A DNA stretch of 64,000 nt from Symbiodinium sp. CCMP2592 (taxonomy: Eukaryota; Sar; Dinophyceae; Suessiales; Symbiodiniaceae). The position numbers and the translations under genes are program-made. This document shows, piece by piece, positions 24,011 through 49,352 of the stretch. The DNA is taken from contig CAJNDT010002779.1 in assembly GCA_905221615.1 (NCBI GenBank), positions 664,001 to 728,000 on the forward strand, given 5' to 3'. A model generated the notes under the pieces. The model searched no databases. It was not told where the DNA came from and saw only the letters and a program-made list of their open reading frames with translations. The first letter of the stretch is position 1, and each line of letters opens with the position of its first letter.

Positions 24011-24052
24011 GCCATGGCAGAGGCAGAAAGAGCACGGCAAGAGGCGAGACAA
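24011..24052 (+). CDS. Charged helical exon candidate
   Basis: After GAGCTGCAG the frame reads AMAEAERARQEARQ to a possible GT donor (CAA|GTCGAC). It is similar in character to the 18-residue modules downstream and may be a diverged member or leader of the array. Confidence 0.4.
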
Positions 24053-26686: not shown

Positions 26687-26740
26687 GCGCGTTCAGAGCA
26701 GCTACGAGCGATGCTCGAGGTTGAAGAGACCAAGAAGCAG
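26687..26740 (+). CDS. Array exon 1 (diverged type B)
   Basis: [18 protein letters not shown]. Acceptor TTCGAG, donor CAG|GCAGAC. Diverged but same length, phase and GC donor. Confidence 0.6.
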
Positions 26741-27671
26741 GCAGACCTCGGGCCCAACTTTAGGGCTCAGGGTTTAGGAAAGTTTGGGGTTTAGGGTAAG
26801 GGGACTTACTGGGCCAATTAGGGTCTTTTGAGGGAGCTTTCAGGGGGCTAAAGAGTTTTGGGCCTTTTTGGAGGGCTCTGATGGGGTTTCAGGGCCTTGT
26901 GAGGGCTTCTTGGATTGGAATGTTGCATGTCTCTAATGATTTTTGCTCGGCTTGAGACTTAGGTCTTGCGGCTTGAGGAGGAGCTTTTCTGTTCAGGGTC
27001 TCTGCGGTTTCAGTTGTTTGGGGCCAGGTTGCTCATTGGTGAGAAAATGTTTAGCCGATGAGTTCAAGCCCGCCAACATGGCGTGCAGTACAGGGACGTT
27101 GGTCTGGTTTCAGCCGTGGGATATCGGGTTTAGGCTTTAGGGTTTAGGGTATCGTTGCCACGATGCTGCCATCCCGCTGTTGTCGATACTATGTATGTGC
27201 CAGGTAATGTCAGGAATATGTCTGTCTGCTTCTCGTTCGGGCCGCGCGTCCTGAACTTGCCTACTTACTCCCCGGGCCCTTTTTGCCAGGCGCGTGCTGA
27301 GCAAGAGAAATTTTTCCGGGAGGCCGAAGAGGCCAAGAAGAAGGCCCCTGCATATTAATGTAGGAACCTGATTAAGAAACCCTGGCCCTATATCCTCAAA
27401 ACAGTAGGATTCACACAAGGAACCCTGATACAGGCCCAAGGTTTCTTAATCAGGTTCCTACATTAACTATGATACGGTATGGTACCGTGTTATGGTATCT
27501 TCATGGTCTCTATATACCTATAGTCTCCGTTGTAGTTCCTGGTTTTGGGTAACCACAGTTGATAGCATGGGGTCCTGACCATAAAGTTGGTTAGCCGCAA
27601 AAGGAGCTACACAGGAGACTATGGGTAGTATCTTAAAGTTCATGATGCCTATACATACATACATACATACA

Positions 27672-27707
<36 letters not shown>

Positions 27708-27722
27708 TATATATACACATAC

Positions 27723-27771
<49 letters not shown>

Positions 27772-30700
27772 TGTATACTAGGATGCCCGGTAGTGCCCGT
27801 ATTCCCTTTTTGTAGTCCTAGTTTCCTTACTTTTGTATTCCCAGGTTACTGGGCATCCTAGTATAGGATATCATGTTTTCTAGCCCTGAAGCTTCGGCTT
27901 CGGAAGCCTAGCCCGGTTTAGGGTTTAGGGTTTAGGGTTTAGGGTTTAGGGTTTAGGGTTTTGAGGCTTCGGGTGTTTGGCCACTTGAAATCCCACTACG
28001 GTAGGGGTAGCAAGGCCTGGGGGTGAGAACTGCAAACTACCATCTCCCATAACTGATTGTTCATAAGGTGCTAAGTTTGTTGTAGTATATGATTGTCGGT
28101 TCTTTACTGAGATTGCTACTTTGGATGCAGCACTATCAGTGCTGTATCTGACGTAAAAGAACTGAAGGTATAGTCCAAATCACGGCCATGGCCCTCAAAG
28201 CAGATGGCCGCGGTAGATCCCTCTTGCCTTAAAGCACTAGCCCGTACGGCTCTCGGGCCTTGAGTGTGGGGCGGCCCTGGAACCTAAACCCCTACATAAA
28301 CCCAGGCTTGGGGTTCAGGGTTTTCGGGCACCCGTGGCTTCGACTGGGGTTTAGGTTTACGGTTTTAGGGTTTAGGGTTTCGCAGCATGGTCCTTTAGAC
28401 CCCACCCAATCTTAAATTCGTTTATACTTCGTGGAGTACCTTGTTTTTTCTCGAAGCCCTAAACCCTAAACCCTAGCCCTAAACCCACGAAACCCAAACG
28501 CCCTGTACCCTTAACCCGAAAGCTATTTGGGTCCAAAGACCCCCAACCCTAAAACCTTAAGCTGCTCTTTGATATGGACAGCCCTAAGCCCTATAACCCT
28601 ATAAGCTCCATACACCCTACCTTAACCCTGAATATCTTACCTTTTCGGGACCCATATAAGGAAATCATAATAAGGAACCCGCTAAAAAGGTAGGATATTT
28701 AGGGCTAAGGTAAACCCCATAAACCCTAATAATCTCCTTAAACACCCAGAGATCCCAATACCCCTTAATTAAGGATTATACCGTATACCTTAAATCAGAA
28801 TATTAAGGCCCCTGGTATTCAAGGTATATACCTTAATTAAGGGGTTTTGGGTTCTCTGGGCAGGCTCTTGAAGAGCAGCAGGAAGCTGCAGAGAAAGCCG
28901 AGGAAGCGAAGCGCAAGGCTGGCGGAGCATGTAAATTAAATCAGAGGGCTCCCACCTTGGGGTATTGCCCCAAAATATGGACTTTAAGGGATCCCCAATC
29001 CCCAGGGCCTCCAAGGGCGGGATGGAGGTTGAGGGTTTAGGGTTGAGGTAGTTGGGGTAATCCCAAAATCATAAGAGTCCTTATATAAGGGATCCTTAAT
29101 CCTACCCACCTTCATCCCGCCTTTTGAGGCCTCGAAATGAATTCCTGACTTCGAACCCATGGCTTGATTTGGGTTTACAGGGTTTAGCGGGGTTTTAGGG
29201 TTCAGGATGGTTTACAGGGTTTTCTTTTTGAGGGACTTGTTAAGACTTGAACGTAGACTTTTATAAGATGCTCAGAAAGTTGTCTGACTTGACAAAGCGG
29301 TTTAAGATCAGGGTTCACTGAGTTGACTCGAAAAAGGGCACGTGAAGTGGACGCCAAGTCCGAACAACTTGTAAGTGTTGTGACTGCAGGGTGCGAGTGC
29401 ATGAAATGAACTCATTTGGGCTGGAAGGGGATTGACGGCACACATGCCGGGTTGACCGGTGAGGGTTGAGGGTGCAGCGGTCTAGGCAGGTGGGTATTTG
29501 GAGAGGGGGTAGCAGCCAGGTAGGTAGCGATGCCAGCTTGGTCATAGAAAGCTCGCACAGTCGTAGGTAGGTGGGTAGGTAGGTAGGTAGGTAGGCAGCC
29601 GTTAGCTAGGCAAGGCAGGTAGGCATGCATGACATAGGCACAGACAGATACATGGATGAACACCTTCATTCATACATACATATACACATACAGACGGACA
29701 GACAGAGAGACAGGCAGGAAGGCAGACAGGCAGACAGACCTGCACACAGACATTACCCATGGACATACATACATTTCTTCTTCCTTGCATGTTCACAGCT
29801 CTGTTCACATTCGTTTTCGTCTTGCAATTTACAAAACGGTCCAAGTTTCCTGTATACTAGAATGTATCTATATTAGGAACTACTTGTATGAGTTGGCTGG
29901 AGACATATCCCACCCAGTACCTAGGACCCCTTGGGATTGTACATCTTCAGAAGTGGCTCCAGTGCAGCCTCCCCTGGGTACAAGGCTTTGGGCTCTTAGC
30001 TCAGGATTCAGGGTTCAGGGTTTAGGGTTTAAGGTTTAGGGATTGGGGTTTAGGGTTTAAGGTTTAGGGATTGGGGTTTAGGGTTTAGGGTTTGGGGTTT
30101 AAGGTTTAGGGATTGGGGTTTAGGGTTCAGGGTTAAGGGTCCAACCACCCGAAACTGCCAACAATCCACAGCCACACCGGGGTTCTCTGCTTGCAACTGG
30201 CTGACATAAAACAGTATATATTCCCGATGAAACACGGTAGAACCTTGCCCTATAAACAAGTTAAGGAGTCTTAATTAATAAGAAGCAACAAGGCCAACAA
30301 GCAGCAACATTATTTCTGACTCATACGGTGGAGCGCTAAACCGTATCCCTCAACCCTAAACCCTGAACCCTAAACCCTGAGCCCTAAACCCTAAACCCTG
30401 AACCCTAAACCCTAAACCTTGAACCCTGAACCCTAAACCCTGCACCCTGAACCCTAAACCCTAAACCCTAAATCCTGAACCCTAGCAGGCTCGCGAAGAG
30501 CAAGAGCAGTACTTGCGCGAAGCCGCTGAGGCGAAGCAGAAGGCGCAATTCTGATAAAGTAGGAACCTGATTAAGAATCCCTGGGCCTTTATTAGGGCTC
30601 CTTTAAAGGGGTCTATAAGGGATCCTATAATGGATCTATGATAAGGGTATTATAATAGTGTAGGAACCTGATTAAGAATCCCGGGGCCTTTATTAGGGCT

Positions 30701-33700
30701 CCTTATATAGGACACCTAGTATTTTGGGGATTATGGGCCCAGAGTTTCTTAATCAGGTTCCTACATTATCTGTGCATTTGGTTACGGGTTCCTAGTGCGG
30801 TTTCCGTAGTGGGAACTAGACTAATGAGTTTGGAGTTCATGATTTTTATCTGGGTTTAGGGTATCAAGGGCTCGAATCGGAGGTTGGTGCTTGAGGGTTT
30901 TGAGGGGTTTAGGGGTTTAGGGGAGGTTCTGGAGGTTAGAGCTTTAGGGTTTCGGGTTCAGGGCTTAAGCACTTTGGGCCCTCTAGTTTACGAAGGTTTA
31001 GGGTTTACGGTTTAGAGGCAGGAAGCTTGTTCTGGTCATGGGAGGCATGATTCCTGCTTCTGACTAACACGGGCACCTTTGTTTTAGAGACAAGCGGAAA
31101 AGCCTTAAACCCTAAACCCTAAGCCACCTCGGGAGGCTCGTGAAGAGCATGAGAAGTTCCTCCAAGAGGCCGAAGAGGCCAGGAAGAAGGCAAGTCCGCC
31201 CCGGTTTAGGGTTTAGGGTTAATGGGTGTTGCCAAGCATCTCGCAGCTAAGCCCAGTTCACAACATCAAAAAACCTAAAGTTCCAACACTGTGTTGGATG
31301 TTTATTGCAGGCATCCCGCTATAATCCGTATAAATACCTATAAATACCTTTGACAGAAGTAAAGGCCCCGACAAGCTTGATGCCCCGCTCCCTCCCATCA
31401 ATATATCAAACATACACTCAACCATGATCTAAACCCCCGCCCCTAAAGACAAACCCCTTAAAGCCCAATAATCAAGAACCAGACAACAGACAAAACTCGG
31501 GCTGCAAGGCCTTGGCTGAGCAAAAGAAGGCTGCGGAGGAAGCCGAGGAAGCCAAGATCAAGGCCAGTTTGGCCTCTTTGGGGCTGTAGGGCTTGGGGGG
31601 TAAGGGTTTGGGGTTTAGGGTTTGGGGTTTAAGGTTTGGGGGTTTAGGGTTTAGGGTTTGGGGTTTAGGGTTTTGGGGTTTGGGATTGAGGGTTTGGGGT
31701 TTGGGGTTTAGGGTTAGGATTTAGGGTTTGGGGTTTAGGGATTGGGGTTTAGGGCTTTAACCCCAAACCCTGGCGTCTCAGACTTCTCACGAAGATGAAG
31801 TTTCGTTCGGTCCATCGTCGAGCGCGGAGGCCAAATCCCATGCCTCTTGAGCAGAGAAGTCATATTGCCATAGTCAGAAGAAACAAGGACAAGCCTAGCT
31901 AAGGGCTATGCATACCTACAGGCTCATACCCGACCCTTCTTTCAGATACGTAGCTTTATGGTTTGGATCTGTTGCATAGAAAAGTAGAGACCCTGAAAAA
32001 AGGGGTATGAGCCTACAGGGAAACCCCTAAACCCTATATCACAGCAGACCCATGTTCCACAAGCCGGCTCAAGGCTCTCGCAGAACAAGAAAGGTTCCTC
32101 CAAGAGGCCGAAGAGGCCAAGAAGAAGGCCGATCCCCACCAGTCGCAAGTTGTTTGGGTTTTTTGGGGTTTTGCTGGGCAGATATTAGCTCGAAGCCCTA
32201 AACCCTATGAGCCCTAAACTTCCCTAAACCGACTGGTTTCACGACTTCTTGCCGGATGTCCGTTGGAAGGCCTTGGCGGAGCAGCAAAAAGCCACGGAAG
32301 AAGCAGAGGAGGCAAAGTCAAAGGCCATTTCGTTTGGTTTCGGGTTTAAGGGTTTACCTCTAGTCTCCATTGTAGTTCCTTTTTTTGGTTAACCAAAATA
32401 TTATAGGATCCTAACCATAAAACTGGTTAACCAAAAAAAGGAACTACAATGGAGACTAGAAGTAGGGTTTTAGAATCTTTTCGGGTTTAGGGTTTAGGGG
32501 TTCGTTTGGCCATCTCCGGACCGTTCATGTACCCATAAGTCTCCTTTGTAGTTCCTTTTTTTTGTGTTAACCAAGATTTATGGTATAGGGTCCTAACCAT
32601 AAACGAAGGTTAACCAAGAAAAAAGAGCTACAACGGAGACTAAAGGAAGGGCTCCGTTTGCAGAGGTGCGCTCCCTGCGACCCCTATTGCTGATGCACTC
32701 CGTGCAATTGAAAACGGTTTAGGGTTTAGGGATTTAGGGTTCCATAGAGATGCTCGCTCTACCACACAAACAGCTTTCAGCTCAATGGCCTTCACAGCTG
32801 GACTGTTTCACAAGCTTCATTCGGGCACCGGTTGGCTCTGGGTAGGCCACATGTGACGCAGGTTTTGGTAGTTGTCCGCTCAGCAAGGCTTTGGCCGAAC
32901 AGCAGAAGGCGGCAGAGCAGGCCGAAGAAGCCAAGCTCAAGGCGCGTCTCACGGTCTCGGCGCACTTGGCATTTGTGCTTTAGAGGACTCGGGGAGGTTC
33001 ATCGTCGGGTGTGTGGGAAGCAGCAAGTGCCTTTGCAATAGCTGATAGGTCATGCTGCGCACTCCAAAACCATCCTTAAGCCTTAAGCTCAGTTGGGATG
33101 TCGTCTCCTAGACAAACGAAACGTTAAAGCCATTCAGGAAAAACAGCCTTCGCTTGTTGCACTGCAGACTGCTTTTACAGTCGTTAATACCATGGCCGGC
33201 ACCGGTTGGCGTTGGGTACCCATAGGCCCACAGCAGTTCCTTTTTGGGATTACCTTATAGATTTCTAAATATGAACCCTAAAAAGGAACTACTTTGGCGC
33301 CTTTGGGTAGCCCACACGGATGCATTTTTCGCAGTTGGCGCTGTGCAAGGCTCTGGCCCAACAGCAGAAGGCGGCAGAAGAAGCCGAAGAGGCCAAGCTG
33401 AAGGCGTGTGTCACGGTGCAACACCCGTTGTTGAAATTTGGTTCCTTCAGTTCTATACATCCATGGAGATGTTGTATCGTTTGTTTGATCGCTTGCGTAG
33501 GACACAGCCCAGGTTTCTAGTCACCAGCCGAGAGCTCTACCAAAGTTTTCGTTTCAGCCGAAGTCATGTTTTTGACGTCGCATACTGAGCCGTAACATAT
33601 CCCATCTTCCAGGCTCGCGCAGAGCAAGAAAAGTTCCTCCAAGAGGCCGAAGAGGCCAAGCAGAAGGCGGATCCCGGCATATTGAAAGCAAAACCGGTTG

Positions 33701-36700
33701 AATGCCAGCTTGCTTGTACATTTTTTTGCTTGATGGTCGTTGCAGGCTCTGGCGGAACGACAAAAGGCCGCCCAAGAAGCAGAGGAGGCAAAGTTGAAGG
33801 CCGCTTCTGCGCTTTTCATGGGTTCTATGTTTAGAAGCTTGCATGGATTATTAAGGTTTCAGGGTGGTAGGGCATTAGGGGCTAAGGGTTGATGCTGACT
33901 GCTGCGTTTCGATATGTTCTTTAATTTTGTCAGCGCGGGATTCTTTGGACGGTCTTGGCCTCAGGCCTTGAAATGTTGAATGTACCTATAGTCGGGTTCT
34001 TGAACGGACCTATAGGGGACCTAAAAAGGGTCTATGAGGGTTCTTTCGGGCTTTGGGTTCAGGCTCTGGGATTCTGCGAATAGTCTCCATTGTAGTTCAT
34101 TTTCTGTGTTAACCCTATTTGTGCTTGGGATCCTATAATGCATCTGTCAGCTTTGTGCATGGTACAGCGTAGATGGCTGAGTTTGCCTTAATTGTCTGAT
34201 ACCACTCACTTGCTGCGAAGATGCATGCTTAAAAGTGGCGTGGTCTGCAAGGCTTTGGCAGAGCAGCAGAAGGCAGCCGAAGAAGCCGAAGAAGCCAAGC
34301 TCAAGGCGCGTCACACGGTGTCAAGGACTTTTGGACTCGGAGAGCCTGGTGTAGATGTTTAAACTCTCGTCGACTTCATAGATTACAGCCTTTGCTTCGA
34401 TAATTCGTAGCGAAAAACAAGGCATTCATCAACTGAATTAGCTGGACATGGTTGCATGCGTCGGCTCAGGCGCGCGCAGAGCAACAAAGGTTCCTCCAAG
34501 AGGCCGAAGAGGCCAAGCAGAAGGCGTATCCTGGCGAAGTTGCTGGCATGCCTGCTGCCTCATTTACGCGAGTTTGGGTTTGATGTTCGTTGGAGGCCTT
34601 GGCGGAGCAACAAAAAGCCGCCGAAGAGGCGGAGGAAGCAAAGTTAAAGGCCGCTTCTGAACGTGAGTTGCAGAGGTTTTTTGAAAACCCGACGACACTT
34701 TGCAGTGCGTCATCTTATGAAATTGTACTGAATTCAGCTACAATATTTGTGACAACTGGGCTGTTCTCCAGACCTCAGAATTGGCCGCTTTTCGAAAGCC
34801 ATGGGTTCGCCTGGCAAGGCACTGGCCGAACAGCAGAAGGCGGCGGAAGAAGCCGAAGAAGCGAAGCTGAAGGCGATCCCGGCGGTTCCCAAACCTCGTG
34901 CTTTTTTAGGGGTTTAGGGTTTAGGGTTAGACTCTGGGATGTTGAAGACGTGGTGGAGTGGCGTGTATCATCCATGGGGTACGTAGCAGCCCATGCCTGA
35001 TGATCCTAGAGTTCTAGAAGTAATGTTGCAAAAGGCAAGTTATCGCGCACCCGATAGTGGCTAAGGCTGCAACATGCTAAATGCCATGCATGCGACACAC
35101 GAGGCTAGGGCACACACACACACACAGCATCGCACCAGATTTAGCAGATTTCGCATGAAGTGGCTCAAGGCGCGCGAAGAGCAAGAAAGGTTCCTCCGAG
35201 AGGCCGAAGAGGCCAAGCAGAAGGCGGATCCCGATCGTCTGCGAGGCGCTGCAAGTCAGTCTCCTTTCCTGACGTGCATTGGAGGCCCTGGCAGAGCAAC
35301 AAAAAGCCACAGAAGAAGCAGAGGAGGCAAAGTTGAAGGCCACTTTCTGCACGTGCTCGTTTACAGTTCAGCGCGTGCCACGCCCCCGCCTGGATGTCCC
35401 GTACATTCCGTGCAGATGAAAGTCTGCATGCAGCACAGTTGTTCACTTGAATACTGGCGGGGTTGTCTTGCCTGTGAGCTAGCACCGATTGGCTTTGGAT
35501 AGGCCCCACTTGGAGGCTCATGGGACTTAGTAAGTAGAGTTATAAGTACCTTAACTGGGGATATAACCAATTATGAGTATAGTTACGTTATTTATAACCC
35601 TAGCTACTAAGTACCATGTTCCTTCGATTAGACCCTAAACCCTAGACCCTTAAAGGGAGCCCTATTGTAGAACCCTATAGTACCCTGAAAGAACCCTATA
35701 GCACCATGAACCTCTAAGCTGTGACTGTTAGCTGTCGCTCTGACAGGCTTTAGCAGAGCAGCAGAAGGCGGCGGAAGAAGCCGAAGAAGCGAAGCTGAAG
35801 GCGATCCCGGCGGTTCTCAATCCTCGTGCTTTAATAGGGTTTAGGGATTTAGGGTTTAGGGGTTTAGGGGTTTCACGGTGTACTTGGAGGTTCATGTGTA
35901 GCAGTTATAAGTAGGGTTATTATAAGTCCCCTAATATGAATTATAAGTATAGTTACCATACTTATAACCCTACTTGTAACTACCCATGAACCTCCAAGTA
36001 ACACCTGTTGTGTAGACGGTAGATTCAGACGCACCAATCCAACACCCGAGAAATCACACTGCAAATGCCAAAACATCGACCTACTTAGCTGTCGTTCGGT
36101 AGGCCACAAGGATGCATCTTTCGCTGCTGTCTTTTCGCAAGGCTTTGGCCGAACAGCAGAAGGCAGCAGACGAAGCTGAAGAGGCCAAGCTCAAGGCGTG
36201 TCTGACGAAGTTACATCCAGTTGTTGCATCTCGCGCATCGTTTCCCTGATTCCAAACGTTTGAGTTTATTTCGCACTTCCATGAAGCAGTTGTTGCGTCG
36301 GCTGCGTCACCAGGAGTGTATATGAAACAGCCCATGCATCATGTCACTATAGTATAGCCGGACGTTCATGTTGCAACACCAACGAATCTGTCTCTGCTAA
36401 ACATGCTAAAGGTCATTTAGAGCAACTCACACTATATCGCGGTATCGCAGCAAATGCCGTCTTCCCAGTGCCGGCTCAAGGCGCGCGCAGAGCAAGAAAG
36501 GTTTCTCCAAGAGGCCGAAGAGGCCAAACAGAAGGCGGATCCCGATATGGTGAAAGCAAAACGGCTGGGATGCTAGTTCGTTTGCACGAGTTTTGTTTGA
36601 TGGTCGTTGGAGGCTCTGGCAGAACAACAAAAGGCAGCTGAAGAAGCAGAAGAGGCAAAGTTGAAGGCGGCTTCTGAACGATTTCGAATTGTGGATGTGA

Positions 36701-39700
36701 CTTCGCGCAGACGTCGCTAGTGTGTTCTCTTATAAGTTGTCTGATGTCAGCTGCAAGATTCTTGACAACTGGCCCGTCTGCAGACTTCCAGACGGCGTTC
36801 CTTGGCTCTCGGCCGGTAGGCCGCAGGTGTCTTTCAGCAGTTGTTTGCTTTGGAAGGCTCTTGCCGAACAGCAGAAGGCGGCAGAGGAAGCCGAAGAAGC
36901 CAAGCTAAAGGCGAGTCCCATGGTCTCAACACGTGGGCAATAGATTGCAGGAAGATGATTTATGTATATGCACCAGCCCATGTCTGATGAGACGAAAGGT
37001 CATGCTGCAAAAGGCAAGTTGTCGACCAACCTTGTTGCTAAAGCTGCTAAATGCTGACTGCCATGCATACGGCATACGACACGCTCACGGCATCGGAGCA
37101 GATCCAGTCCCCCATGCAGTGGCTCCAGGCGCGAGAAGAGCAAGAAAGGTTCCTCCGAGAGGCCGAAGAGGCCAAGCAGAAGGCGGATCCCGACCTTTGC
37201 AAGCTGCCGTGCGCAAATTCTCAGTCGCCTTGTCCGGTGTCTGTTTGAGGCCCTGGCGGAGCAACAGCAAGCCACAGAAGCAGCAGAGGAGGCAAAGTTG
37301 AAGGCCTTTTATGGACTGTTCCTGTACATGCTCGTTCAAAGTTCTCCGTGCTTCCAATCGCATTGTAAAACCTGTACTTTGCGTGCAGATGAGCGTTTGC
37401 ACGCAGTCGAGTGATTCACTCGAATCCCAGCGGGGTGAGTGATCTCTGAGGTTTCAGAGAGCTGTGCTGTTTCACAGACGTTCCTCCGGCGCCGATGGGC
37501 TTTGGGTAGGCCACAGTGACGATTAGTTGTTGTCCGCTCTGACAGGCTTTGGCCGAACAGCAGAAGGCGGCAGAAGAGGCCGAAGAAGCCAAGCTGAAGG
37601 CGTGTCTTGCGGTGTTTGACTGTCGTTTAGACTCGGGGAGGTTGTTTCAGACTTCTCGGACTATGTAGACTCCATGCAACTGTTGTTTCGTTGATTCGTT
37701 GAGTGCATCGTCAGGTATGTAGGTCCAGTGTAGGTAGCAGCAAGTGCTGCAACAGCAGTGACATCACACTGCAAACGCCAAGCCGGCCGCCGCCGACCAA
37801 CTGAGTGGTTTCTTGTTAAATGTAAAAGCCATGCACAAGCATTGCTTTTTGTGCATCTTTTCCTGTTGTCGCTTTGCAAGGCGTTGGCCGAACAGCAGAA
37901 GGCAGCGGAAGAAGCTGAAGAGGCCAAGCTCAAGGCGTGTCTGACCATGTCAACACCGGTTGTTGCATCGCGCGTATCCTTTTCAATATCCCACATGTTT
38001 GAGTTTGTTTCAGACTGCCTTGAAGATGTTGCTTCGTCCGCTGCGTCATCGGGTTTGCATATAGGAAACATCTCATGCATCATGTCACTATAGCCCGAAG
38101 CTCATGTTGCAACACCCACGTTTCTGTCTCTGCTAAGGTTGCTAGAGGTCATCTAGTGAAACTCACACTGTATCGCCGTATCGCAGCAAATGCCGTCTTC
38201 CCAGTGCCGGATCAAGGCACGTGCAGAGCAAGAAAGGTTCCTCCAAGAGGCCGAAGAGGCCAAACAGAAGGCGGATCCCGATATGGTGAAAGCAAAACGG
38301 CTGGGATGCTAGTTCGCTTGCACGAGTTTTTGTTTGATGGTCGTTGGAGGCTCTGGCAGAACAAAAGGCCGCTGAAGAAGCAGAAGAGGCAAAGTTGAAG
38401 GCCGCTTCTGAACGAAATTGAACGACGTGACTTTGCGCAGACTCGTGCGTTCTCTTGTCAAGTAGTCTACTGTCTGCTACAAGAGTCTCGACAACTGGCC
38501 TGTTCCGCAGACTTCTAGACCGCCTTCGCAGACCCTCGGTAGACCGCATGTGACCATCTTTTGCAGTTGTTCCCTTTGCAAGGCTCTGGCCGAACAGCAG
38601 AAGGCGGCAGAAGAAGCCGAAGAAGCCAAGCTCAAGGCCAGTCTCATCGTCTCAACACTTGTGGTTTGCCTAGAGTCTCCATTGTAGTTCCTTTTTGGTT
38701 AACCCAAAAATATATTATAGGAATCCCAACCATAAAATTGGTTGACCGAAAAAAGGAACTACAATGGATACTATAGGTGGACGGTGGGAAGTTGATTCAC
38801 AGTGTTGTTTCCGCTGAAGGTGTGGTGGGGTCGGGTATAGTACCTAGTGCAATGGCAACAGCCCATGCCTGATGAGCCGAGAGTTGAGAGGTCATGTTGC
38901 AAAAGGCAAGATATACACCAACCTAGCTGCTAAGACTGCTAAATGCTGACTGCCATGCATACGGCATACGACACGCTCACGGCATCGGAGCAGATCCAGT
39001 CCTCAATGCGATGGCTCCAGGTGCGCGAAGAGCAGGAAAGGTTCCTCCGAGAGGCCGAAGAGGCCAAGCAGAAGGCGGATGCCGACATTTTGCATTTGGG
39101 GTTAAAGCTTAAGACGGGATCCATTAAGGGATCTATAAGGGTTACTATAAGGGATCTAAGCGGAAGCTGCCGTGCGCAGATTCTCGGTCGCCTTGTCCGA
39201 TGTCCGCTGGAGGCCCTGGCAGAGCAACAGAAAGCCGCAGAAGCAGCAGAGGATGCAAAGTTGAAGGCCTTTTGCGGACTGCTCCTGTACATGCTCGTTC
39301 AAAGTTCTCCGTCCTGTCAACTGGCCCCTAGAACCTGTACTTTGCGAACAGATGGAGCGTTTGCGCGCAGTAGAGTGTTTCACTCGAATCCCAAAGGGTG
39401 ATCTTTGCCTGCTTTCTGCCGCGGTAGTTTCCACAACTGGGCTGTTTTACAGACTTTCAGCCGGCACCGATTGGCTTTGGGTAGGCCACAATGACTGTTA
39501 GCTGTTGTCCGCTCGGTCAGGCTTTGGCCGAACAAAAGAAGGCGGCAGAAGAAGCCGAAGAAGCCAAGCTGAAGGTGCGTCTGACGGTGTAACACCTGTC
39601 GTTTAGGCTCTAAGAGGTTGCTTTAGACTTCTCAGGCTATGTAGACTCCATGCAACTGTGTCGTTCGCTCGTTGAGTGCATTGTTGTCTGTCTAGGTCCA

Positions 39701-42700
39701 GTGTACGTTGCAGCAACTGCATCAACAGCCGAGACATCGCGCTGCAAACGCCGAAACATCGACCAACTGAGTTGTTTGTTGCTAAATGTAAAAGCCATGC
39801 ACAAGCATTGCTTTTTGCGACGCCGGCTGTCATGCGATGACTGGCACCGGTTACCTTTCGGTAGGCCACAGGGATGCATCTTTTGCTGTTATGGCTTTGC
39901 AAGGCTTTGGCCGAACAGCAGAAGGCAGCAGAAGAAGCTGAAGAGGCCAAGCTCAAGGCGTGTCTGACCATGTCTGCACCGGTTGTTGCATCACGGGTTT
40001 CCATTCCGTGATTTCAGATGTGTGAGTTTGTTTCATACTGCCTCACCCCTCTAAGATGTCGACAGCCGGAAGATGTCGCTTCGTTTGCTGTGTCACCGGG
40101 TGTGCGTAGGAAAGAGCCCATGCCTCATGTTGCTACGTGTCGCAGCAAATGGCTTTTTCCCAGTGCCGGCGCAAGGCGCGTGCGGAGCAAGAAAGGTTCC
40201 TCCAAGAGGCCGAAGAGGCCAAACAGAAGGCGGATCCCGACATGTTGAAAGCAAAACCGCTAGGATGCCAGTTCGTGTGCACGAGTTTTTGTTTGATGGT
40301 CGTTGGAGGCTCTGGCAGAACAACAAAAGGCCGCTGAAGAAGCAGAAGAGGCAAAGTTGAAGGCCGCTTCTGAACGTTTGAATATCAGCGAATTTTGGCA
40401 CAGATGTCGCCAGTCTTTTCGCGAGGACTCCAATGTCAGCTACAATACTCCTGATAACTGGGCTGTTATGCAGACTTCCAGACAGCCTTCGTTAGCTCTC
40501 GGTAGTCCGCACGTGATCATTTGTGCAGCGATTCGCTTTGCAAGGCTCTGGGCGAACAGCAGAAGGCTGCAGAAGAGGCCGAAGAAGCCAAGCTAAAGGC
40601 GAATCTCATGTTCTGGATGCTCGTGCTTGGGTTTTGAAGCCCCGGTATATTGAAGACGAGGCGGAGTGGGGTTGTGTAGGGAACAGGTGAGAGCCCAAGC
40701 TTGGCTAGCCGAGAGGTCATGTTGCAACATGCAAGTAATTGACCTACATAGTTGCTAAGACTGCTACATGCTAAATTGCTAAATGCCATGCATAGGACAC
40801 ACTCACGACATCGCAACAGATGACGTCATGCAGTCCCACCGGGTCCACGTACCAGCATAGTAGGTACTTAGTAGGATTTGAGCGAGGCGCGCGAAGAGCA
40901 AGAAAGGTTCCTTCGAGAGGCCGAAGAGGCCAAGCAGAAGGTGGCCCACCTGATTGTTGCAAGGTTTATGGTTTTTGGGTGTTTTGGGTTTTTGCAGTGC
41001 AGGGTTGAGGGCATTCGGGATTTAGGTTTTAGTTGGATTGGACCGATTGACTTCCTGTAATGTAAGAACCTCATTTAGAAACCTTGGGCCTTTGTTAGGG
41101 TTCCTTATGAATCCTACTGTGTTGGGGGGGTGTAGGCCCAGGGTTTCTAAATCAGGTTCCTACGCTAACCCTTATTTAATAATATACCCTTACATTATAG
41201 AGGCCAATATATTATACTTTAAGGTACCCTCCTTAACTAAGATAATGTAGTACCCTTATATAGATCCCATATAGTAACCCTTACAGATCCCTTTAAAGGA
41301 ACCCTCACATAGTCCCAGGGTTGCTCAATCAGGTTCCTACATCAAACCCTTGAAAACCCGTTATGATACGCTTATAGTCCCTTCAAAGGAACCCTTATGC
41401 AATATACTCTTACATTATAGAGGCCATAATACTATACTTTAAGTTAACTTTAAGGTATATCCCTTAGTTAAGGGGTCCTTACATTATGTTCCCGCCCGTC
41501 CCATTGAGGCCCTGGCAGAGCAGCAAAAGGCCGCTGAAGAAGCGGAAGAGGCGAAGTTGAAGGCCACTTGGTTTGGTTTAGGGTTTTGGGGGATTAGGGG
41601 TTTAGGGTGTAGGGGTTTAGGGTTGAGGGGTTTAGGGTTTAGGGGTTTAGAGTTTAGCGGTTTAGGGGTTGGGTTTTAGGGTTGAACTTCAGCGCTGAAG
41701 GCTTTGCCCAGGCTTTGCTTGGCAGGGTCCCCGCCCCAATCGCCTGACGCCTCATGTTCATGTGCAGATGCAACTCTGGTGTTGCGTAAAGAGGGATCTC
41801 GGACAGAAGCGAGCCAAACAAACTTTCCTGCCGAAAAACATGCGCAGTATCGAGAGTCATGCGCAGAGCCAGCGGCAGACTTTTCCCTGAACACGTCACG
41901 TTGCGAGACTCACCAGATCATACCGGGCTCAACATAGCTGGCCTGATGCTCGAAGTGAGGTTTCTCGTTCTTTCGGCCTCCAGCAGTTTGAAAACTTGGG
42001 TGCTTCACACACCCTCACATGGCAGCTGTTGGCTTCCGCTAGGCCGCAATAGATGCATGTTTGGTAGTTTTGTCCGCTCTGCAAGGCCTTGGCTGAACAG
42101 CAGAAGGCAGCAGAAGAAGCCGAGGAAGCCAAGCTGAAGGCGTTTCCTCGGTGTCAACACCTGTTCTTCGTATCGTCGGGCGTAGGAGGCATCAAGTGCT
42201 TGACATAAAGATCGACCAACCTACCTGTGTCCTGCTAGGCACGCGAGGAGCAGGAGAGGTTTTTCCGAGAGGCCGAAGAGGCCAAGCAGAAGGCGGATGC
42301 CAACCTTTCGCAAGCAAAGCTGCTGCGGAGGGCAAGTTTTCGTTTGATGTTTGCTGGAGGCCCTGGCGGAACAACAAAAGGCCGCGGAAGAAGCGGAGGA
42401 GGCAAAGTTGAAGGCCAGATTGATCTTCAGCTGGGAGGAGCCGTTTATGCAAGTGAACATCTGTCTGCATGCCGAAATTAGTGAAGTCGATGACTTAAAC
42501 GGCCTCAAGACAAAAACCTTGAAAACTAATTAGGGTGTTTCTTACACTTCCAAAAAACAGCTGTTGGCTTTCCGCTGGCCACATGTGACCAGTGCTTGAT
42601 AGATCTCCGCTCTGCCAGGCCATGGCCGAACAGCAGAAGGCAGCGGAAGAAGCTGAAGAAGCCAAGCTGAAGGCGTGTTTGCACGGTGTTAGCACCCGTT

Positions 42701-43276
42701 GTTTTGACTCGGAGAGGTTTGTTCTGATGTTGTAGTCTCTCGAGAAGATGTTGTCTCTTCGGGTGTATGGGTTGTCGAGTGCGTTGGTAACAGTCCATGC
42801 CTCAGTAGTCAGGTCAGCGCAAAAAGACATCCCCCAGGGTCCAAAGGACCCAATAATTACGTGCTCGGTTTTAGGATGGTAGTTATGTAGGTTACTATTT
42901 GGGAGAGTATATGATGATTAGGTACTTGGACCCTCAGGGACATTGTACAGGCCTTCCAGAGGAAACTATTGCTCCAAGGGGAAAAGGAGGGGCCCTTAAT
43001 AAGGACCCCTAGGTATATACCCTTAATATGTAGCTATTATATACCCCTTGTATGGCCCATCATAGGGTAAGGGTCCCCATTACGGTCCCTCCTTTTCCCC
43101 TTTGATTTGCTGTATCGCAGCAGTTCACGTCCTCTCTGCGCTGGCTCCCAGGCACGCGAAGAGCAGGAGAGGTTCCTCCAAGAGGCTGAAGAGGCCAAGC
43201 AGAAGGCGGCCCCCGCCCTGGTGTTAGGGTTTGGGGTTTGTTGCAAGCTTCCCCAGGTAATATTGTGCAGACTCTA

Positions 43277-43307
<31 letters not shown>

Positions 43308-44382
43308 GGAGTCGTGTTTTGCTTCATGTTCGTTGGAGGCCATTGCGGAGCAACAGAAAGCTGCTGAGGAAGCGGAGGAAGCAAAGTTGAAGGCCATTTC
43401 TGAAAATCAGCTGTAGGCAGTTGTTGAATTTGCGCATGATCTGTGCCGGTATTGCCTGCTCATTGTCATTCCCTTCAGATGAGACCGTACCGTTGATGTT
43501 TTTGCCTAAGCTGAGAGGTATAAGTTTCGGTTGTCCGCCCTTGGCATCTGGCATTTAGCAGGCTTCCATGTGGCAACTGTTTCAAACCCAATTAGACTGT
43601 TGCTCGGTCTGCAAGGCTTTGTCAGAACAACAGAAGGCAGCAGAAGAAGCCGAAGAAGCAAAGCTGAAGGCCTGTTCGGCATTCGAACCCGGTTTGTGTC
43701 CGGCTTTGGGACGTGCGTTGTCAACGAGTCTTTGGATATGCCACCAACAGAACGCCCTAACCCCTAAGCCCCAGACTCTGAGCTGTAGCAGACAGTTTGG
43801 AACCCTAATGTAGTACTCTAAATTCTTAGGATCCTGAATAGTGCGACCTTTGAGCAATAAGCCCGAGTTGATTGAAGCTCCTAGATACCCTTAACATCCC
43901 TAAACGTTTCACCGTCCTAGACTCCAAGACCCTCCGGGGCCCTAAACATCACATGGGGGCTTCCGAAAATAGGGGACCCGAATCTGGCACCATAAATAGT
44001 AGGATCCTTATTATAAGGGCCCCCCCCCAAAAGAAGGTACCCCAAACTTTCGGAAGCTCCCACATCAGTCACCAAGAATCAAAACCCTAAACCCCTACAA
44101 GGCGCACTTCTTTTATTCTTCGGAGATGTGAACGAAGCAAGGCATGTTTCACGAGCCGAAGCTTTGTCGGCCGAAGCGAAGTCATCGAATCAAGTCCTTG
44201 TGGGTTTTGCACTCAAAGGCCTCAAGTAATTTGTAGGTTTAAGGAGGCAGATTTTGTATCAACCTCTCAGATATTAGCCCTAAACCACCGTAAGTATGGG
44301 CTTGTTCATCCTTGATCTGGGATGCGAGGCCCGAGAAGAGCGAGAGAAGCTTCTCCAAGAAACCGAAGAGGCCAAGCACCAG
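26687..44382 (+). CDS. Tandem 54-nt exon array coding an 18-residue-repeat helical protein
   Basis: Forty-seven exons, 46 of 54 nt and one of 51 nt, each bounded by AG|G at the 5' side and AAG or CAG followed by GC (twice GT) at the 3' side, all in phase 0. Type B modules resemble [18 protein letters not shown] and type A modules [18 protein letters not shown]. From exon 7 onward the order is B-A-A or B-A-A-A. Joined, they give 845 residues of uninterrupted, Glu/Lys/Ala-rich helix with no Pro or Gly except one Gly. Eighteen residues equal five alpha-helical turns, so hydrophobic positions stay on one face without drift, as in straight single helices or 18-residue coiled-coil repeats. A structural or cytoskeletal role is inference only. 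True N- and C-termini are not identified; candidate upstream exons start at 17655. Homologous introns show growth by duplication. Confidence 0.8.
27290..27343 (+). CDS. Array exon 2 (type B)
   Basis: [18 protein letters not shown]. Acceptor TTTTTGCCAG, donor AAG|GCCCCT. An HP5 element follows 15 bp later. Confidence 0.8.
27358..27464. repeat. HP5 hairpin element
   Basis: TGTAGGAACCTGATTAAGAA pairs with TTCTTAATCAGGTTCCTACA, one of the most perfect palindromes here. Confidence 0.9.
27515..27627. repeat. HP4 hairpin element
   Basis: TACCTATAGTCTCCGTTGTA pairs with the right end GGAGACTATGGGTA. Confidence 0.8.
27648..27770. repeat. (CATA)n then (AT)n microsatellite
   Basis: About 13 CATA units, then two (AT)n runs. 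Confidence 0.95.
27777..27865. repeat. HP14 hairpin
   Basis: TACTAGGATGCCCGGTA pairs with TACTGGGCATCCTAGTA. Only copy noticed. Confidence 0.75.
27866..28617. other. Array intron sequence
   Basis: TTTAGGG array at 27915-27960, otherwise CCCTAAA-type filler. No further module found in this long intron. Confidence 0.5.
28618..28712. repeat. HP9 hairpin element
   Basis: TACCTTAACCCTGAATATCT left arm and GATATTTAGGGCTAAGGTA right arm. Confidence 0.8.
28745..28860. repeat. HP6 hairpin abutting an exon acceptor
   Basis: CCCAGAGATCCCAATACCCC pairs with the right end TTGGGTTCTCTGGG. The last G is followed at once by CAG|GCT, the acceptor of exon 3. Confidence 0.85.
28864..28917 (+). CDS. Array exon 3 (type A)
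   Basis: [18 protein letters not shown]. Acceptor CTGGGCAG, donor AAG|GCTGGC. Confidence 0.8.
28918..30488. other. Long array intron
   Basis: Contains a hairpin with CCTTGGGGTATTGCCCC near 28950, GGTAGGTA/GACAGACAGG simple repeats at 29.57-29.75 kb, and GGGGTTTAGGGTTTAAGG repeats at 30.0-30.14 kb plus CCCTGAACCCTAAA repeats at 30.35-30.48 kb. Minus-strand open frames at 29.2-29.84 kb follow the simple repeats and are not credible. Confidence 0.5.
30489..30542 (+). CDS. Array exon 4 (type B)
   Basis: [18 protein letters not shown]. Acceptor CCTAGCAG, donor AAG|GCGCAA. Confidence 0.8.
30558..30765. repeat. HP5 element with duplicated left half
   Basis: A left arm at 30558 is repeated at 30659. 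Only one right arm (CTTAATCAGGTTCCTACA) ends at 30765. Looks like an internal duplication of the element. Confidence 0.75.
31136..31189 (+). CDS. Array exon 5 (type B)
   Basis: [18 protein letters not shown]. Acceptor TCGGGAG, donor AAG|GCAAGT. Confidence 0.8.
31509..31562 (+). CDS. Array exon 6 (type A)
   Basis: [18 protein letters not shown]. Acceptor GCTGCAAG, donor AAG|GCCAGT. Confidence 0.85.
31590..31760. repeat. GGGGTTTAGGG intronic repeat
   Basis: Dense TTTGGGGTTTAGGG-type units within the intron. Confidence 0.85.
32074..32127 (+). CDS. Array exon 7 (type B, A-like start)
   Basis: [18 protein letters not shown]. Begins like type A and ends like type B, a possible recombinant module. 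Acceptor CTCAAG. Confidence 0.8.
32270..32323 (+). CDS. Array exon 8 (type A)
   Basis: [18 protein letters not shown]. Acceptor GTTGGAAG, donor AAG|GCCATT. Confidence 0.85.
32355..32464. repeat. HP4 hairpin element
   Basis: TCTAGTCTCCATTGTAGTTC pairs with GAACTACAATGGAGACTAGA. Confidence 0.9.
32530..32648. repeat. HP4 hairpin element
   Basis: Second HP4 copy in the same intron, diverged: TACCCATAAGTCTCCTTTG and CAACGGAGACTAAAGG. Confidence 0.8.
32888..32941 (+). CDS. Array exon 9 (type A)
   Basis: [18 protein letters not shown]. Acceptor TCAGCAAG, donor AAG|GCGCGT. Confidence 0.85.
33217..33309. repeat. HP1 hairpin element
   Basis: TACCCATAGGCCCACAGCAG left arm and GGCGCCTTTGGGTA right end. 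Confidence 0.85.
33350..33403 (+). CDS. Array exon 10 (type A)
   Basis: [18 protein letters not shown]. Acceptor TGTGCAAG, donor AAG|GCGTGT. Confidence 0.85.
33613..33666 (+). CDS. Array exon 11 (type B)
   Basis: [18 protein letters not shown]. Acceptor TCTTCCAG, donor AAG|GCGGAT. The next intron is only 79 nt. Confidence 0.9.
33746..33799 (+). CDS. Array exon 12 (type A)
   Basis: [18 protein letters not shown]. Acceptor CGTTGCAG, donor AAG|GCCGCT. Confidence 0.9.
34252..34305 (+). CDS. Array exon 13 (type A)
   Basis: [18 protein letters not shown], the consensus A module. Acceptor TCTGCAAG. Confidence 0.9.
34470..34523 (+). CDS. Array exon 14 (type B)
   Basis: [18 protein letters not shown]. 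Acceptor CGGCTCAG, donor AAG|GCGTAT. Confidence 0.9.
34596..34649 (+). CDS. Array exon 15 (type A)
   Basis: Consensus A module. Acceptor GTTGGAG, preceding intron 72 nt, donor AAG|GCCGCT. Confidence 0.9.
34819..34872 (+). CDS. Array exon 16 (type A)
   Basis: Consensus A module. Acceptor TGGCAAG, donor AAG|GCGATC. Confidence 0.9.
35170..35223 (+). CDS. Array exon 17 (type B), start of repeat copy 1
   Basis: [18 protein letters not shown]. Acceptor GGCTCAAG, donor AAG|GCGGAT. The next intron is 61 nt, the shortest in the array. Confidence 0.9.
35285..35338 (+). CDS. Array exon 18 (type A)
   Basis: [18 protein letters not shown]. Acceptor ATTGGAG, donor AAG|GCCACT. Confidence 0.9.
35509..35628. 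repeat. HP2b hairpin element
   Basis: CTTGGAGGCTCATGGGACTT at the left with a diverged complementary right end TACTAAGTACCATG. Confidence 0.7.
35747..35800 (+). CDS. Array exon 19 (type A)
   Basis: Consensus A module. Acceptor CTGACAG, donor AAG|GCGATC. The 3' flank matches that of exon 16 for about 40 bp. Confidence 0.9.
35883..35998. repeat. HP2b hairpin element, TSD TA
   Basis: CTTGGAGGTTCATGTGTAG pairs with TACCCATGAACCTCCAAG, flanked by TA on both sides. Confidence 0.85.
36142..36195 (+). CDS. Array exon 20 (type A)
   Basis: [18 protein letters not shown]. Acceptor TTCGCAAG, donor AAG|GCGTGT. Confidence 0.9.
36481..36534 (+). CDS. Array exon 21 (type B)
   Basis: [18 protein letters not shown]. 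Acceptor CCGGCTCAAG, donor AAG|GCGGAT. Confidence 0.9.
36613..36666 (+). CDS. Array exon 22 (type A)
   Basis: Consensus A module. Preceding intron 78 nt. Acceptor GTTGGAG. Confidence 0.9.
36857..36910 (+). CDS. Array exon 23 (type A)
   Basis: Consensus A module. Acceptor TTTGGAAG, donor AAG|GCGAGT. Confidence 0.9.
37129..37182 (+). CDS. Array exon 24 (type B), start of repeat copy 2
   Basis: [18 protein letters not shown]. Acceptor TGGCTCCAG. The preceding 60 bases match those before exon 31. Confidence 0.9.
37250..37303 (+). CDS. Array exon 25 (type A)
   Basis: [18 protein letters not shown]. Preceding intron 67 nt. Acceptor TGTTTGAG. Confidence 0.9.
37546..37599 (+). CDS. Array exon 26 (type A)
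   Basis: Consensus A module. Acceptor CTCTGACAG, donor AAG|GCGTGT. Confidence 0.9.
37881..37934 (+). CDS. Array exon 27 (type A)
   Basis: Consensus A module. Acceptor CTTTGCAAG, donor AAG|GCGTGT. Confidence 0.9.
38217..38270 (+). CDS. Array exon 28 (type B)
   Basis: [18 protein letters not shown]. Acceptor GGATCAAG. The flanking introns match those of exon 21. Confidence 0.9.
38350..38400 (+). CDS. Array exon 29 (type A, 51 nt)
   Basis: [17 protein letters not shown], 17 codons: one Gln codon is lost, keeping frame. The only core exon not 54 nt long. Confidence 0.9.
38583..38636 (+). CDS. Array exon 30 (type A)
   Basis: Consensus A module. Acceptor TTTGCAAG, donor AAG|GCCAGT. Confidence 0.9.
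38669..38778. repeat. HP4 hairpin element
   Basis: CCTAGAGTCTCCATTGTAGT pairs with ACTACAATGGATACTATAGG, inside the intron after exon 30. The homologous intron after exon 23 lacks it, so it is a later insertion. Confidence 0.85.
39021..39074 (+). CDS. Array exon 31 (type B), start of repeat copy 3
   Basis: [18 protein letters not shown]. Here the exon starts GTG instead of GCG. Acceptor TGGCTCCAG. Confidence 0.9.
39213..39266 (+). CDS. Array exon 32 (type A)
   Basis: [18 protein letters not shown]. The preceding intron is 138 nt because of an inserted AAGGGATCTATAAGGG-type piece. Confidence 0.9.
39521..39574 (+). CDS. Array exon 33 (type A, GT donor)
   Basis: [18 protein letters not shown]. 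The donor is AAG|GTGCGT where homologous copies have GC, which confirms this point as a splice donor. Confidence 0.9.
39904..39957 (+). CDS. Array exon 34 (type A)
   Basis: Consensus A module. Acceptor TTTGCAAG, donor AAG|GCGTGT. Confidence 0.9.
40176..40229 (+). CDS. Array exon 35 (type B)
   Basis: [18 protein letters not shown]. Acceptor CGGCGCAAG. Confidence 0.9.
40309..40362 (+). CDS. Array exon 36 (type A)
   Basis: Consensus A module. Preceding intron 79 nt. Confidence 0.9.
40545..40598 (+). CDS. Array exon 37 (type A)
   Basis: [18 protein letters not shown], the only module with Gly. Acceptor TTTGCAAG, donor AAG|GCGAAT. Confidence 0.9.
40887..40940 (+). CDS. Array exon 38 (type B, GT donor)
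   Basis: [18 protein letters not shown]. Donor AAG|GTGGCC in place of the usual GCGGAT. The intron then holds HP5 and related repeats. Confidence 0.9.
41061..41164. repeat. HP5 hairpin element
   Basis: TGTAAGAACCTCATTTAGAA pairs with TTCTAAATCAGGTTCCTACG. A stray right arm lies at 41326-41342. Confidence 0.8.
41165..41490. repeat. Duplicated AT-rich intronic segment
   Basis: ACATTATAGAGGCC followed by an AATACTATACTTTAAG-like stretch occurs at about 41192 and 41414. A partial direct duplication. Confidence 0.6.
41509..41562 (+). CDS. Array exon 39 (type A)
   Basis: Consensus A module. Acceptor CCATTGAG, donor AAG|GCCACT. Confidence 0.9.
42086..42139 (+). CDS. Array exon 40 (type A)
   Basis: Consensus A module. 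Acceptor TCTGCAAG, donor AAG|GCGTTT. Confidence 0.9.
42239..42292 (+). CDS. Array exon 41 (type B)
   Basis: [18 protein letters not shown]. Acceptor CCTGCTAG. Confidence 0.9.
42360..42413 (+). CDS. Array exon 42 (type A)
   Basis: Consensus A module. Preceding intron 67 nt. Confidence 0.9.
42619..42672 (+). CDS. Array exon 43 (type A)
   Basis: [18 protein letters not shown]. Acceptor TCTGCCAG. Confidence 0.9.
42833..42940. repeat. HP7-related hairpin
   Basis: CCCCAGGGTCCAAAGGACCC at the left and GTACTTGGACCCTCAGGG at the right. Internal TTAGGATGGTAGTTATGTAG. Confidence 0.75.
42974..43102. repeat. HP12 hairpin element
   Basis: CCAAGGGGAAAAGGAGGGGC left arm and GGTCCCTCCTTTTCCCCTT right arm. 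It shares CCCCTAGGTATATACCCTTA with the 1281 copy. Confidence 0.8.
43152..43205 (+). CDS. Array exon 44 (type B)
   Basis: [18 protein letters not shown]. Acceptor CTCCCAG. Confidence 0.9.
43274..43306. repeat. (GATT)n microsatellite
   Basis: Seven to eight GATT units inside the intron between exons 44 and 45. Confidence 0.95.
43339..43392 (+). CDS. Array exon 45 (type A)
   Basis: [18 protein letters not shown]. Acceptor GTTGGAG, donor AAG|GCCATT. Confidence 0.9.
43616..43669 (+). CDS. Array exon 46 (type A)
   Basis: [18 protein letters not shown]. Acceptor TCTGCAAG, donor AAG|GCCTGT. Confidence 0.9.
43954..44063. repeat. HP3 hairpin element
   Basis: ATGGGGGCTTCCGAAAATAG and CTTTCGGAAGCTCCCACAT arms. 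Confidence 0.85.
44329..44382 (+). CDS. Array exon 47 (diverged type B, possible terminal)
   Basis: [18 protein letters not shown], then, if not spliced, ADE and TAG at 44392-44394. Acceptor GATGCGAG, donor CAG|GCAGAC. The copy at 47575 has the same layout, so this may be the last exon. Confidence 0.7.
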
Positions 44383-44404
44383 GCAGACGAGTAGGATGAG
44401 GGGT

Positions 44405-47574: not shown

Positions 47575-47628
47575 GCAAGAGCAGAGCAAGAGAAGCTTCT
47601 CCAAGAAACCGAAGAGGCCAAGCACAAG
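47575..47628 (+). CDS. Array exon 48 (type B, possible terminal)
   Basis: [18 protein letters not shown], then AHE and TAG at 47638-47640 if unspliced. The 3' flank (GAGTAGGATGAGGG) matches that of exon 47, so the two are duplicates of the same terminal-type exon. Confidence 0.65.
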
Positions 47629-47650
47629 GCACACGAGTAGGATGAGGGCT

Positions 47651-48568: not shown

Positions 48569-49352
48569 TCATAGGTCAAAGCTTTCGCTCTGCATGCTGG
48601 CTCGAATTGCCTGCTGCTTCACTCTTGCCTGCTGGCTAAACTCCTTGTCCTCTGTGAGGTAATAATGGACTTTGAGGCAAGTTTGTTGCTTGGGTCTTGG
48701 CAATTTCTGGTCACCGGGAACACTCGCAGGTGTGTCGTGGGCTTCCGGTGTTGGTGCACCTGATGATCCGCTAGGAGCATGCTTGGGCCCTGGACGACGA
48801 CTATATGGCCTGGGACCACCCGCGGAGGAACCTCGAATTTGTCTTGTGCGTCGATGGTATTGGCAAAGATCGGGTGGTCGACGAATGCAACAATGCTTCT
48901 TGTCTGCAGTTGGCCCTGGTTTCTTCTGTGTCGCTTCGAGTTTCAGTTGTTTCATGTTTGCCAGCAAGCAATATACCTTCTTGTCTGAGTTGCACATTCG
49001 GACGATGAGCCTCAACAGCACATACCAGGACAAAGTGACCTGCAGCTTGTCTTCATCAGTTTTTTGTTTGTCTTGGCTCCACGTAGAGGAAGACACTCAG
49101 CCGCACATAGTTAGTTTTTGCATATCCGAGGTTTGGGCTATGTGCTGCGACTTCGCAGAGGAGGGCTTCGCTGGGGATCGCCAAAGCGGGTGGCCGCAGA
49201 GTCTGGGAGTCTCGGCTTTGCCTATCAAGCGTCACCTCATAAGTCTTGGTGCTTGGACGTAGAAGTCTGTCTTTCTCCGAGGCGACGATTTCTAGAGCCT
49301 CGGCAAAGTGATGTCTCCTGTGAATCTCGACTGAATAAGTTGGCATGCACAT
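48569..49352 (-). CDS. Minus-strand gene region, unknown
   Basis: Two minus-strand frames in succession. One (49352 to 49056) begins MCMPTYSVEIHRRHHFAEAL and contains EALLCEVAAHSPNLGYAKTN. The next (49096 to 48569, 175 residues) contains EDKLQVTLSWYVLLRLIVRM, MCNSDKKVYCLLANMKQLKL and a Pro/Lys/Arg-rich C-terminal half. Hydrophilic, low-repeat composition supports this strand over the 196-residue plus-strand frame. An intron or frameshift around 49.06-49.10 kb must link them. No family recognised. Confidence 0.4.

Follow-up and report, generated by a model that had tools for sequence, protein, structure and literature searches.

A plus-strand array of 54-nt modules, each read as one phase-0 exon for an 18-residue helical repeat, in Symbiodinium sp. 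CCMP2592

Uniform exon arrays as such are already known, and fibrillar collagen and the LRR genes of Tetrahymena provide described examples. In fibrillar collagen, as described in PMC4450265, 54-bp exons encode 18 residues each, a block of 23 contiguous 54-bp exons is present, and growth is proposed to have started from an 18-residue primordial unit by the addition of exons. The Tetrahymena LRR genes are described with arrays of exons of exactly 90 bp, all in phase 2 and distributed over thousands of genes, and unequal crossing over is proposed as the route of their growth (PMC6564038). Schistosoma mansoni is reported to possess tandemly repeated 81-base exons together with micro-exon genes, in which exons of 6-81 bp, mostly 15 bp, encode secreted proteins and differential splicing takes place (PMC10526429). 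In the titin PEVK region 81-116 repeat exons expand and contract, exon duplication is invoked, and very many splice variants are described (PMC6469411).

The locus considered here lies in a 64-kb stretch of Symbiodinium sp. CCMP2592 DNA (the window), where the profile scan places 47 short modules on the plus strand at positions 26687-44382, all of them 54 nt long except for one of 51 nt. It shares with fibrillar collagen the 54-bp exon for 18 residues and a rod-like product, predicted in the present case (PMC4450265), but is devoid of Gly-X-Y and uses instead an A/E/K helical unit with one Gly and no Pro in 845 residues; a single 51-nt exon stands here against the recurrent 45-bp exons described there, and the array has GC donors and belongs to a dinoflagellate. 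As in the Tetrahymena LRR genes, the host is an alveolate and the tandem exons have one length and one intron phase (PMC6564038), whereas here the unit is 54 nt, phase 0 and helical, and one array plus one three-module fragment was present among the genome-search matches listed. The schistosome genes described in PMC10526429 resemble the array in having many short exons, mostly 3n long and tandem in the 81-base case, with longer introns between them, and their mostly 15-bp micro-exons for secreted products differ from the 54-nt exons seen here. Titin PEVK is likewise a repeat-exon array with duplication invoked and a structural product (PMC6469411), a role that would apply here by prediction; however, it is rich in Pro, Glu, Val and Lys and is not helical, while the array product lacks Pro and has 0.2% Val.

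The locus belongs by its sequence to the general kind in which many consecutive exons have one length and one phase and carry one protein repeat each (48 of 49 modules are of 54 nt). The earlier note on this DNA regarded such a series as very unusual, which is only partly right in view of the collagen (PMC4450265) and Tetrahymena (PMC6564038) descriptions; a uniform exon array for an 18-residue helical rod is absent from the titles and abstract openings listed in searches of the open-access literature, subscription journals being mostly outside this scope. If the array is spliced as predicted, a protist would independently have fixed the 18-residue unit of a rod protein to single 54-base exons in phase 0, with an alpha helix in place of the triple helix of animal collagen.

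Modules, borders and signs of translation

The modules were detected by a motif scan and then by an 18-residue profile trained on the motif-scan matches, and this procedure returned the set that the earlier note had reported for 26687-44382, the lone 51-nt module being module 29 (38350-38400). That span of 47 modules is confirmed in its content but not as the full extent, because two more modules of the 18-residue type lie outside it (47575-47628 and 52350-52403), which brings the plus strand of the window to 49, 48 of them 54 nt long and all readable in phase 0. In the profile scan of the window the 49 real positions score above 30, with a best of 68.1, against a top score of 8.8 in 40 order-2 Markov surrogates read in three forward frames; since these same modules served to train the profile, there is some circularity in their scores, and the surrogates give a background rather than an independent score. 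Module 1 (26687-26740) is the most divergent, with a profile score of 17.0, which rises to 32.4 once it is included in the profile. Over 124 kb the profile found no degenerate extra modules between the highest non-module match, which scores 24.1 and lies at position 24011 next to the candidate first exon, and the lowest-scoring module (35.0). No minus-strand profile matches occurred in the window or in the 124 kb, and three minus-strand rows of the cruder motif scan all came from one simple RE-rich stretch.

The borders follow one pattern, as had been claimed previously: AG directly precedes the module and G follows it in 47 of 47 cases, while C follows as the second intron base after 45 modules and T after only two, modules 33 (39521-39574) and 38 (40887-40940), which have GT donors. 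The 46 introns measure 61-1571 nt with a median of 248, in agreement with the range of 61 nt to about 1.5 kb given before, and their lengths modulo 3 fall into all three classes (13/16/17). All 47 modules are in phase 0 and 3n long, and joining them without a frameshift, as the earlier note proposed, is indeed possible throughout. GC donors are ordinary for a host of this family, since GC or GA donors are reported for 25-74% of introns in Symbiodiniaceae (PMC11453091). A T at intron position +6 follows 38 of the 47 modules, positions +3 to +5 being variable, and possibly contributes to the GC-donor signal of dinoflagellates. In 43 of the 46 introns AGGC is present at both ends, and the exact cut could therefore move by a few bases and leave the mRNA unchanged.

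Substitution counts point to selection at the protein level. Module pairs seven apart (14-34 versus 21-41), pooled although not independent of each other, give pS 0.304, pN 0.031 and omega 0.08; the A modules among themselves give omega 0.165, and the B modules a saturated pS of 0.77 with pN 0.066, module 1 being taken as B in these counts though the nucleotide profile places it nearer A. Between the two best preserved copies of a 7-module unit (see below) the exons are 94.9% identical with one indel in 375 bp, a 3-nt loss or gain of a whole codon, compared with 80.4% identity and 19 indels over 1250 bp of intron. Judged by these figures, the modules evolve like translated exons, with nonsynonymous change suppressed and introns diverging much more. 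Splicing at the module borders would also agree with codon usage at the end of the unit: with module 29 excluded, AAA accounts for none of the 46 Lys codons at the last position compared with 6 of the 33 at position 7 (p = 0.004), the shortage relative to position 16 (3 of 47) being not significant (p = 0.24), and absence of AAA from the last codon is what an AG|G border would require.

Cassettes, higher-order units and growth of the array

The modules fall into two protein types, A and B, and B is split by nucleotide profile into B1 and B2. The description of the modules as nearly invariant holds for the protein within each of the two types and fails for the DNA, as pairs among the 29 B modules compared are up to 19 of 54 bases apart. 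B1 and B2 share a common protein consensus and differ mostly at synonymous sites, which argues that neighbouring modules are not homogenised.

When each module was scored against a nucleotide profile built without that module, modules 7-46 resolved into 12 cassettes of the order A-B1-B2(-B2), with no exception across all 40 modules and with sizes, in order, of 4, 3, 3, 4, 3, 4, 3, 4, 3, 3, 3 and 3 modules. Upstream of them, modules 2-6 form an irregular 5' part found by the profile at 27290-31562 (+), namely module 2 (A, 27290-27343), module 3 (B, 28864-28917), module 4 (A, 30489-30542), module 5 (A, 31136-31189) and module 6 (B, 31509-31562); the order is irregular in modules 1-6 and 47-49 as a whole. 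All on the plus strand, cassette 1 (modules 7-10, A B1 B2 B2, 32074-33403) consists of 32074-32127, 32270-32323, 32888-32941 and 33350-33403; cassette 2 (modules 11-13, A B1 B2, 33613-34305) of 33613-33666, 33746-33799 and 34252-34305; cassette 3 (modules 14-16, 34470-34872) of 34470-34523, 34596-34649 and 34819-34872; and cassette 4 (modules 17-20, 35170-36195) of 35170-35223, 35285-35338, 35747-35800 and 36142-36195. Then follow cassette 5 (modules 21-23, 36481-36910) with 36481-36534, 36613-36666 and 36857-36910; cassette 6 (modules 24-27, 37129-37934) with 37129-37182, 37250-37303, 37546-37599 and 37881-37934; cassette 7 (modules 28-30, 38217-38636) with 38217-38270, the 51-nt module at 38350-38400 and 38583-38636; and cassette 8 (modules 31-34, 39021-39957) with 39021-39074, 39213-39266, 39521-39574 (GT donor) and 39904-39957. 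The last four are cassette 9 (modules 35-37, 40176-40598) at 40176-40229, 40309-40362 and 40545-40598; cassette 10 (modules 38-40, 40887-42139) at 40887-40940 (GT donor), 41509-41562 and 42086-42139; cassette 11 (modules 41-43, 42239-42672) at 42239-42292, 42360-42413 and 42619-42672; and cassette 12 (modules 44-46, 43152-43669) at 43152-43205, 43339-43392 and 43616-43669.

Above the cassettes a 7-module unit is visible, of which cassettes 5 and 6 make one copy and cassettes 7 and 8 a second. Exon similarity is highest at an offset of 7 modules, a value reached by 16 of 2000 whole-cassette shuffles, and intron similarity has its maximum at the same offset, with 15 of 39 pairs alike versus 3 of 45 at offset 1. 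Within modules 7-46 the intron ends resemble each other by class, with similarities on the acceptor side of 0.470 within and 0.267 between classes and on the donor side of 0.458 and 0.280, and none of 2000 label shuffles gave a likeness as high. Likeness of introns by class and at offset 7 indicates that cassettes, and later cassette pairs, were duplicated together with their introns, and, judged by these patterns, tandem duplication of blocks of exons and introns appears to account for most of the array's growth. The preserved cassettes would record this growth in three-module and then seven-module blocks, with introns that still show the copying. Many introns, above all at both ends of the array, have no homologue at a regular offset, so that the duplication evidence does not cover every intron; the three intron classes may themselves go back to separate introner insertions.

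Predicted product and explanations of the array

The 47 modules joined give 845 residues with no Pro, one Gly and a net charge of -68, composed of 27.8% E, 27.5% A, 15.4% K and 11.8% Q, with 0.2% Val. The strongest period of the joined product is 3.59 residues and the next 2.99; among 46 modules, the 51-nt one being excluded, a hydrophobic residue occupies positions 1, 8, 12 and 15 in 98-100% and position 9 in 93%, while the one core slot left, position 5, has Gln in 43. The core spacing of 4-3-4-3-4, with Gln at 5, and the period near 3.6 are those of an octadecad (18-residue) coiled coil. With 3.6 residues in each turn the 18-residue unit makes five turns of helix, and such a pattern fits either a straight coiled coil or a stable helix on its own. 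The sequence therefore suggests a coiled coil or rod-like structural protein with an Ala/Phe stripe, about 127 nm long if it forms one continuous helix. The earlier reading of one 18-residue helix-like unit per exon gains support from the coding-type evolution and, less directly, from the signs of splicing at the borders. The function itself is guessed from composition, because joined modules 21-30 gave no Pfam match at E 0.01 and no PDB relative, with one weak match to MIC60 (E = 0.71).

The explanation that we consider probable is that the array is the repeat region of a dinoflagellate nuclear gene for a rod protein, with one exon per helical repeat, grown by block duplication and spliced constitutively by default. 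It would have started from phase-0 introns lying between 18-residue alpha-helical repeats, one 54-nt exon each; exon-plus-intron blocks would then have been duplicated in tandem, as A-B1-B2 cassettes at first and as the 7-module unit later, probably by unequal recombination. Introns may subsequently have drifted and gained insertions, while purifying selection held the protein sequence and the splice borders. By default the transcript would most likely contain every module and encode one straight helix of about 845 residues, free of Pro and rich in A/E/K.

A different use of the same exons would be a length device programmed by splicing, in which a variable number or choice of modules yields rods of different length from one gene. 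Any subset of the 47 modules keeps the frame, all being phase 0 and 3n; exon skipping makes up 77% of the alternative splicing events described for the dinoflagellate A. gibbosum (PMC11453091); and the duplicate exons 47 and 48, each followed by a stop, could act as alternative ends. However, duplication of phase-0 exons automatically yields exons of one length and one phase, so neither property speaks for exon choice, and the A-B1-B2 order is kept in all 40 modules 7-46, where nothing points to free choice. Combinatorial isoforms from the array, as raised in the earlier note, may occur but gain no support from the phase symmetry, and a length device as the explanation of the array seems unlikely to us. 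Still less likely is a genetic ruler, in which rod length up to about 127 nm would be set in 2.7-nm module steps by exon inclusion or by exon number between strains; that A modules mark every third or fourth step of such a ruler belongs to the same improbable reading. Irrespective of this, skipped modules would keep the frame and their count would be readable in each long read, so that the array, if spliced as predicted, would offer an uncomplicated natural system in which to test dinoflagellate exon skipping.

The order of events could also have been the reverse, with an intronless tandem repeat present first and introners entering the same AAG|GC site again and again. The introners of Symbiodinium microadriaticum are described as making 4-bp target duplications from which the 5' splice site is taken (PMC9860276), and the AGGC at both ends of 43 of 46 introns parallels these duplications; neighbouring introns are rarely homologous (3 of 45 at offset 1), and intronless 54-bp coding repeats for 18 residues, unrelated in sequence, do exist in the genome (C1411, C1709 and C5368). 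Yet the AGGC repetition is also forced by the codons together with the splice signals, and many introns were copied along with their exons, as the homology within classes and at offset 7 shows, so parallel insertion fits best only the oldest layer of about three introns and the irregular ends, and as an account of the whole array it is improbable. Two further explanations deserve very little credence. A non-coding or decayed minisatellite that merely resembles exons would suit the simple, low-complexity protein, and an unrelated minisatellite of 18-19 codons with shifting frames is present in the genome (C1741), but it is strongly contradicted by the suppression of nonsynonymous change, by the indel asymmetry, by the AG and G borders in 47 of 47 modules and by the 61-1571 nt of other sequence that set the units apart. 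Long repeats are also prone to being mis-joined or falsely expanded in assembly; the window, however, contains no N, and even the most alike 7-module copies differ in about 20% of aligned intron bases, which makes the modules distinguishable and an assembly artefact scarcely plausible.

Ends of the gene and genome context

At the 3' end, modules 47 (A, 44329-44382, +) and 48 (47575-47628, +) read in frame to a stop after three codons, ADE and TAG in the former (44329-44394) and AHE and TAG in the latter (47575-47640), and a stop within three further codons occurs in only 3 of the 49 modules (4, 47 and 48). By their sequence each of the two may close the coding region instead of being spliced as an internal exon, and 44329-44394 is the likely terminal coding exon. 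Module 48 duplicates the exon of module 47 with 87% identity over 98 nt, and the DNA further downstream is 93% identical over 90 nt. Module 49 (52350-52403, +), of B type with a tied B1/B2 assignment (margin 0.1), lies isolated about 4.7 kb downstream and may be a stranded or late exon; the 3' end is thus ambiguous among modules 47, 48 and 49. Between modules 48 and 49 the stretch at 48569-51960, which may be a repetitive element inserted there, has many GCCTGCTGGCTCG-like repeats and three ORFs of 157-196 codons that have no Pfam match at E 0.01.

No N-terminal exons were found, and the sole lead to a start exon is a weak candidate at 24014-24043 (+), with ATG, 10 codons (MAEAERARQE), a phase-0 end and GC following it. 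It came from a helical-composition scan of 124 kb outside the modules, which returned nine places, and it counts as a lead only, because six of the nine are not plain simple sequence. No Pfam family passed its curated cut-off in the three plus-strand frames of about 12.0-27.0, 26.8-34.0 and 44.4-59.4 kb or in two long minus-strand ORFs; the only rows, weak and sub-threshold, were New_glue (E 0.77), Zip (0.22), EMC3_TMCO1 (0.076) and Sec62 (0.53). Some A modules are preceded by the acceptor GGCTCAAG, which is similar to the end of the dinoflagellate spliced leader, but leader relics were rejected on pattern counts, with no match in the window to the 19-base leader pattern at up to 3 mismatches and 4 matches to the 10-base pattern at 1 mismatch versus 6.6 expected.

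The host genome gave 143 matches to the peridinin-chlorophyll protein family PF02429 (best E 2.9e-61) and 14 control genomes gave none, which identifies it as a peridinin dinoflagellate. Large tandem arrays of peridinin-chlorophyll protein genes are present on C1035, C722, C2391 and C784, and three partial matches to this family sit in open frames of about 3100 codons.

No second array was present among the genome-search matches listed, only a fragment of three modules (A B B), which occurs on C5035 and again, almost identical, on C45, the first acceptor being AC and not AG in both copies. The duplication that carries it spans about 12.4 kb (C5035:438927-451371 and C45:149462-161898) at 98-99% identity, and the fragment is taken for an orphan cassette that has lost its acceptor AG, not for a second gene. 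The genome search worked near its limit of sensitivity: the 18-residue query missed even the present array, and another search (E up to 10; 53 matches, best candidates only) missed modules 1, 2, 3, 5, 47 and 48, so that a diverged second array could have been missed as well. The matches on C1411, C1709 and C5368 (35% identity, E 0.3) belong to an identical 365-residue frame with about ten contiguous 18-residue repeats ELKPAGEVPTAAPQATEP (lags 18, 36, 54), rich in Pro and Gly and intronless over the repeat; with the same period but a different sequence they were treated as unrelated and not as intronless relatives. The same conclusion was drawn for C1741:18500-24500, a long minisatellite of about 54-57 bp (18-19 codons) with SPERKAAEDPKKKKQRQ-like repeats and shifting frames.

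Some longer introns of the array contain palindromic elements with ends like TAGGAACCTGATTAAGAA ... AGGTTCCTACAT, at about 27361-27470, 30559-30770 and 41060-41350, which look like introner or MITE-type insertions and in introns 2 and 4 closely follow the donor. In intron 3, TTTAGGG-like (telomere-like) repeats form inverted arms of up to 145 nt at 29976-30483, and such repeats recur in other inspected parts of the window.
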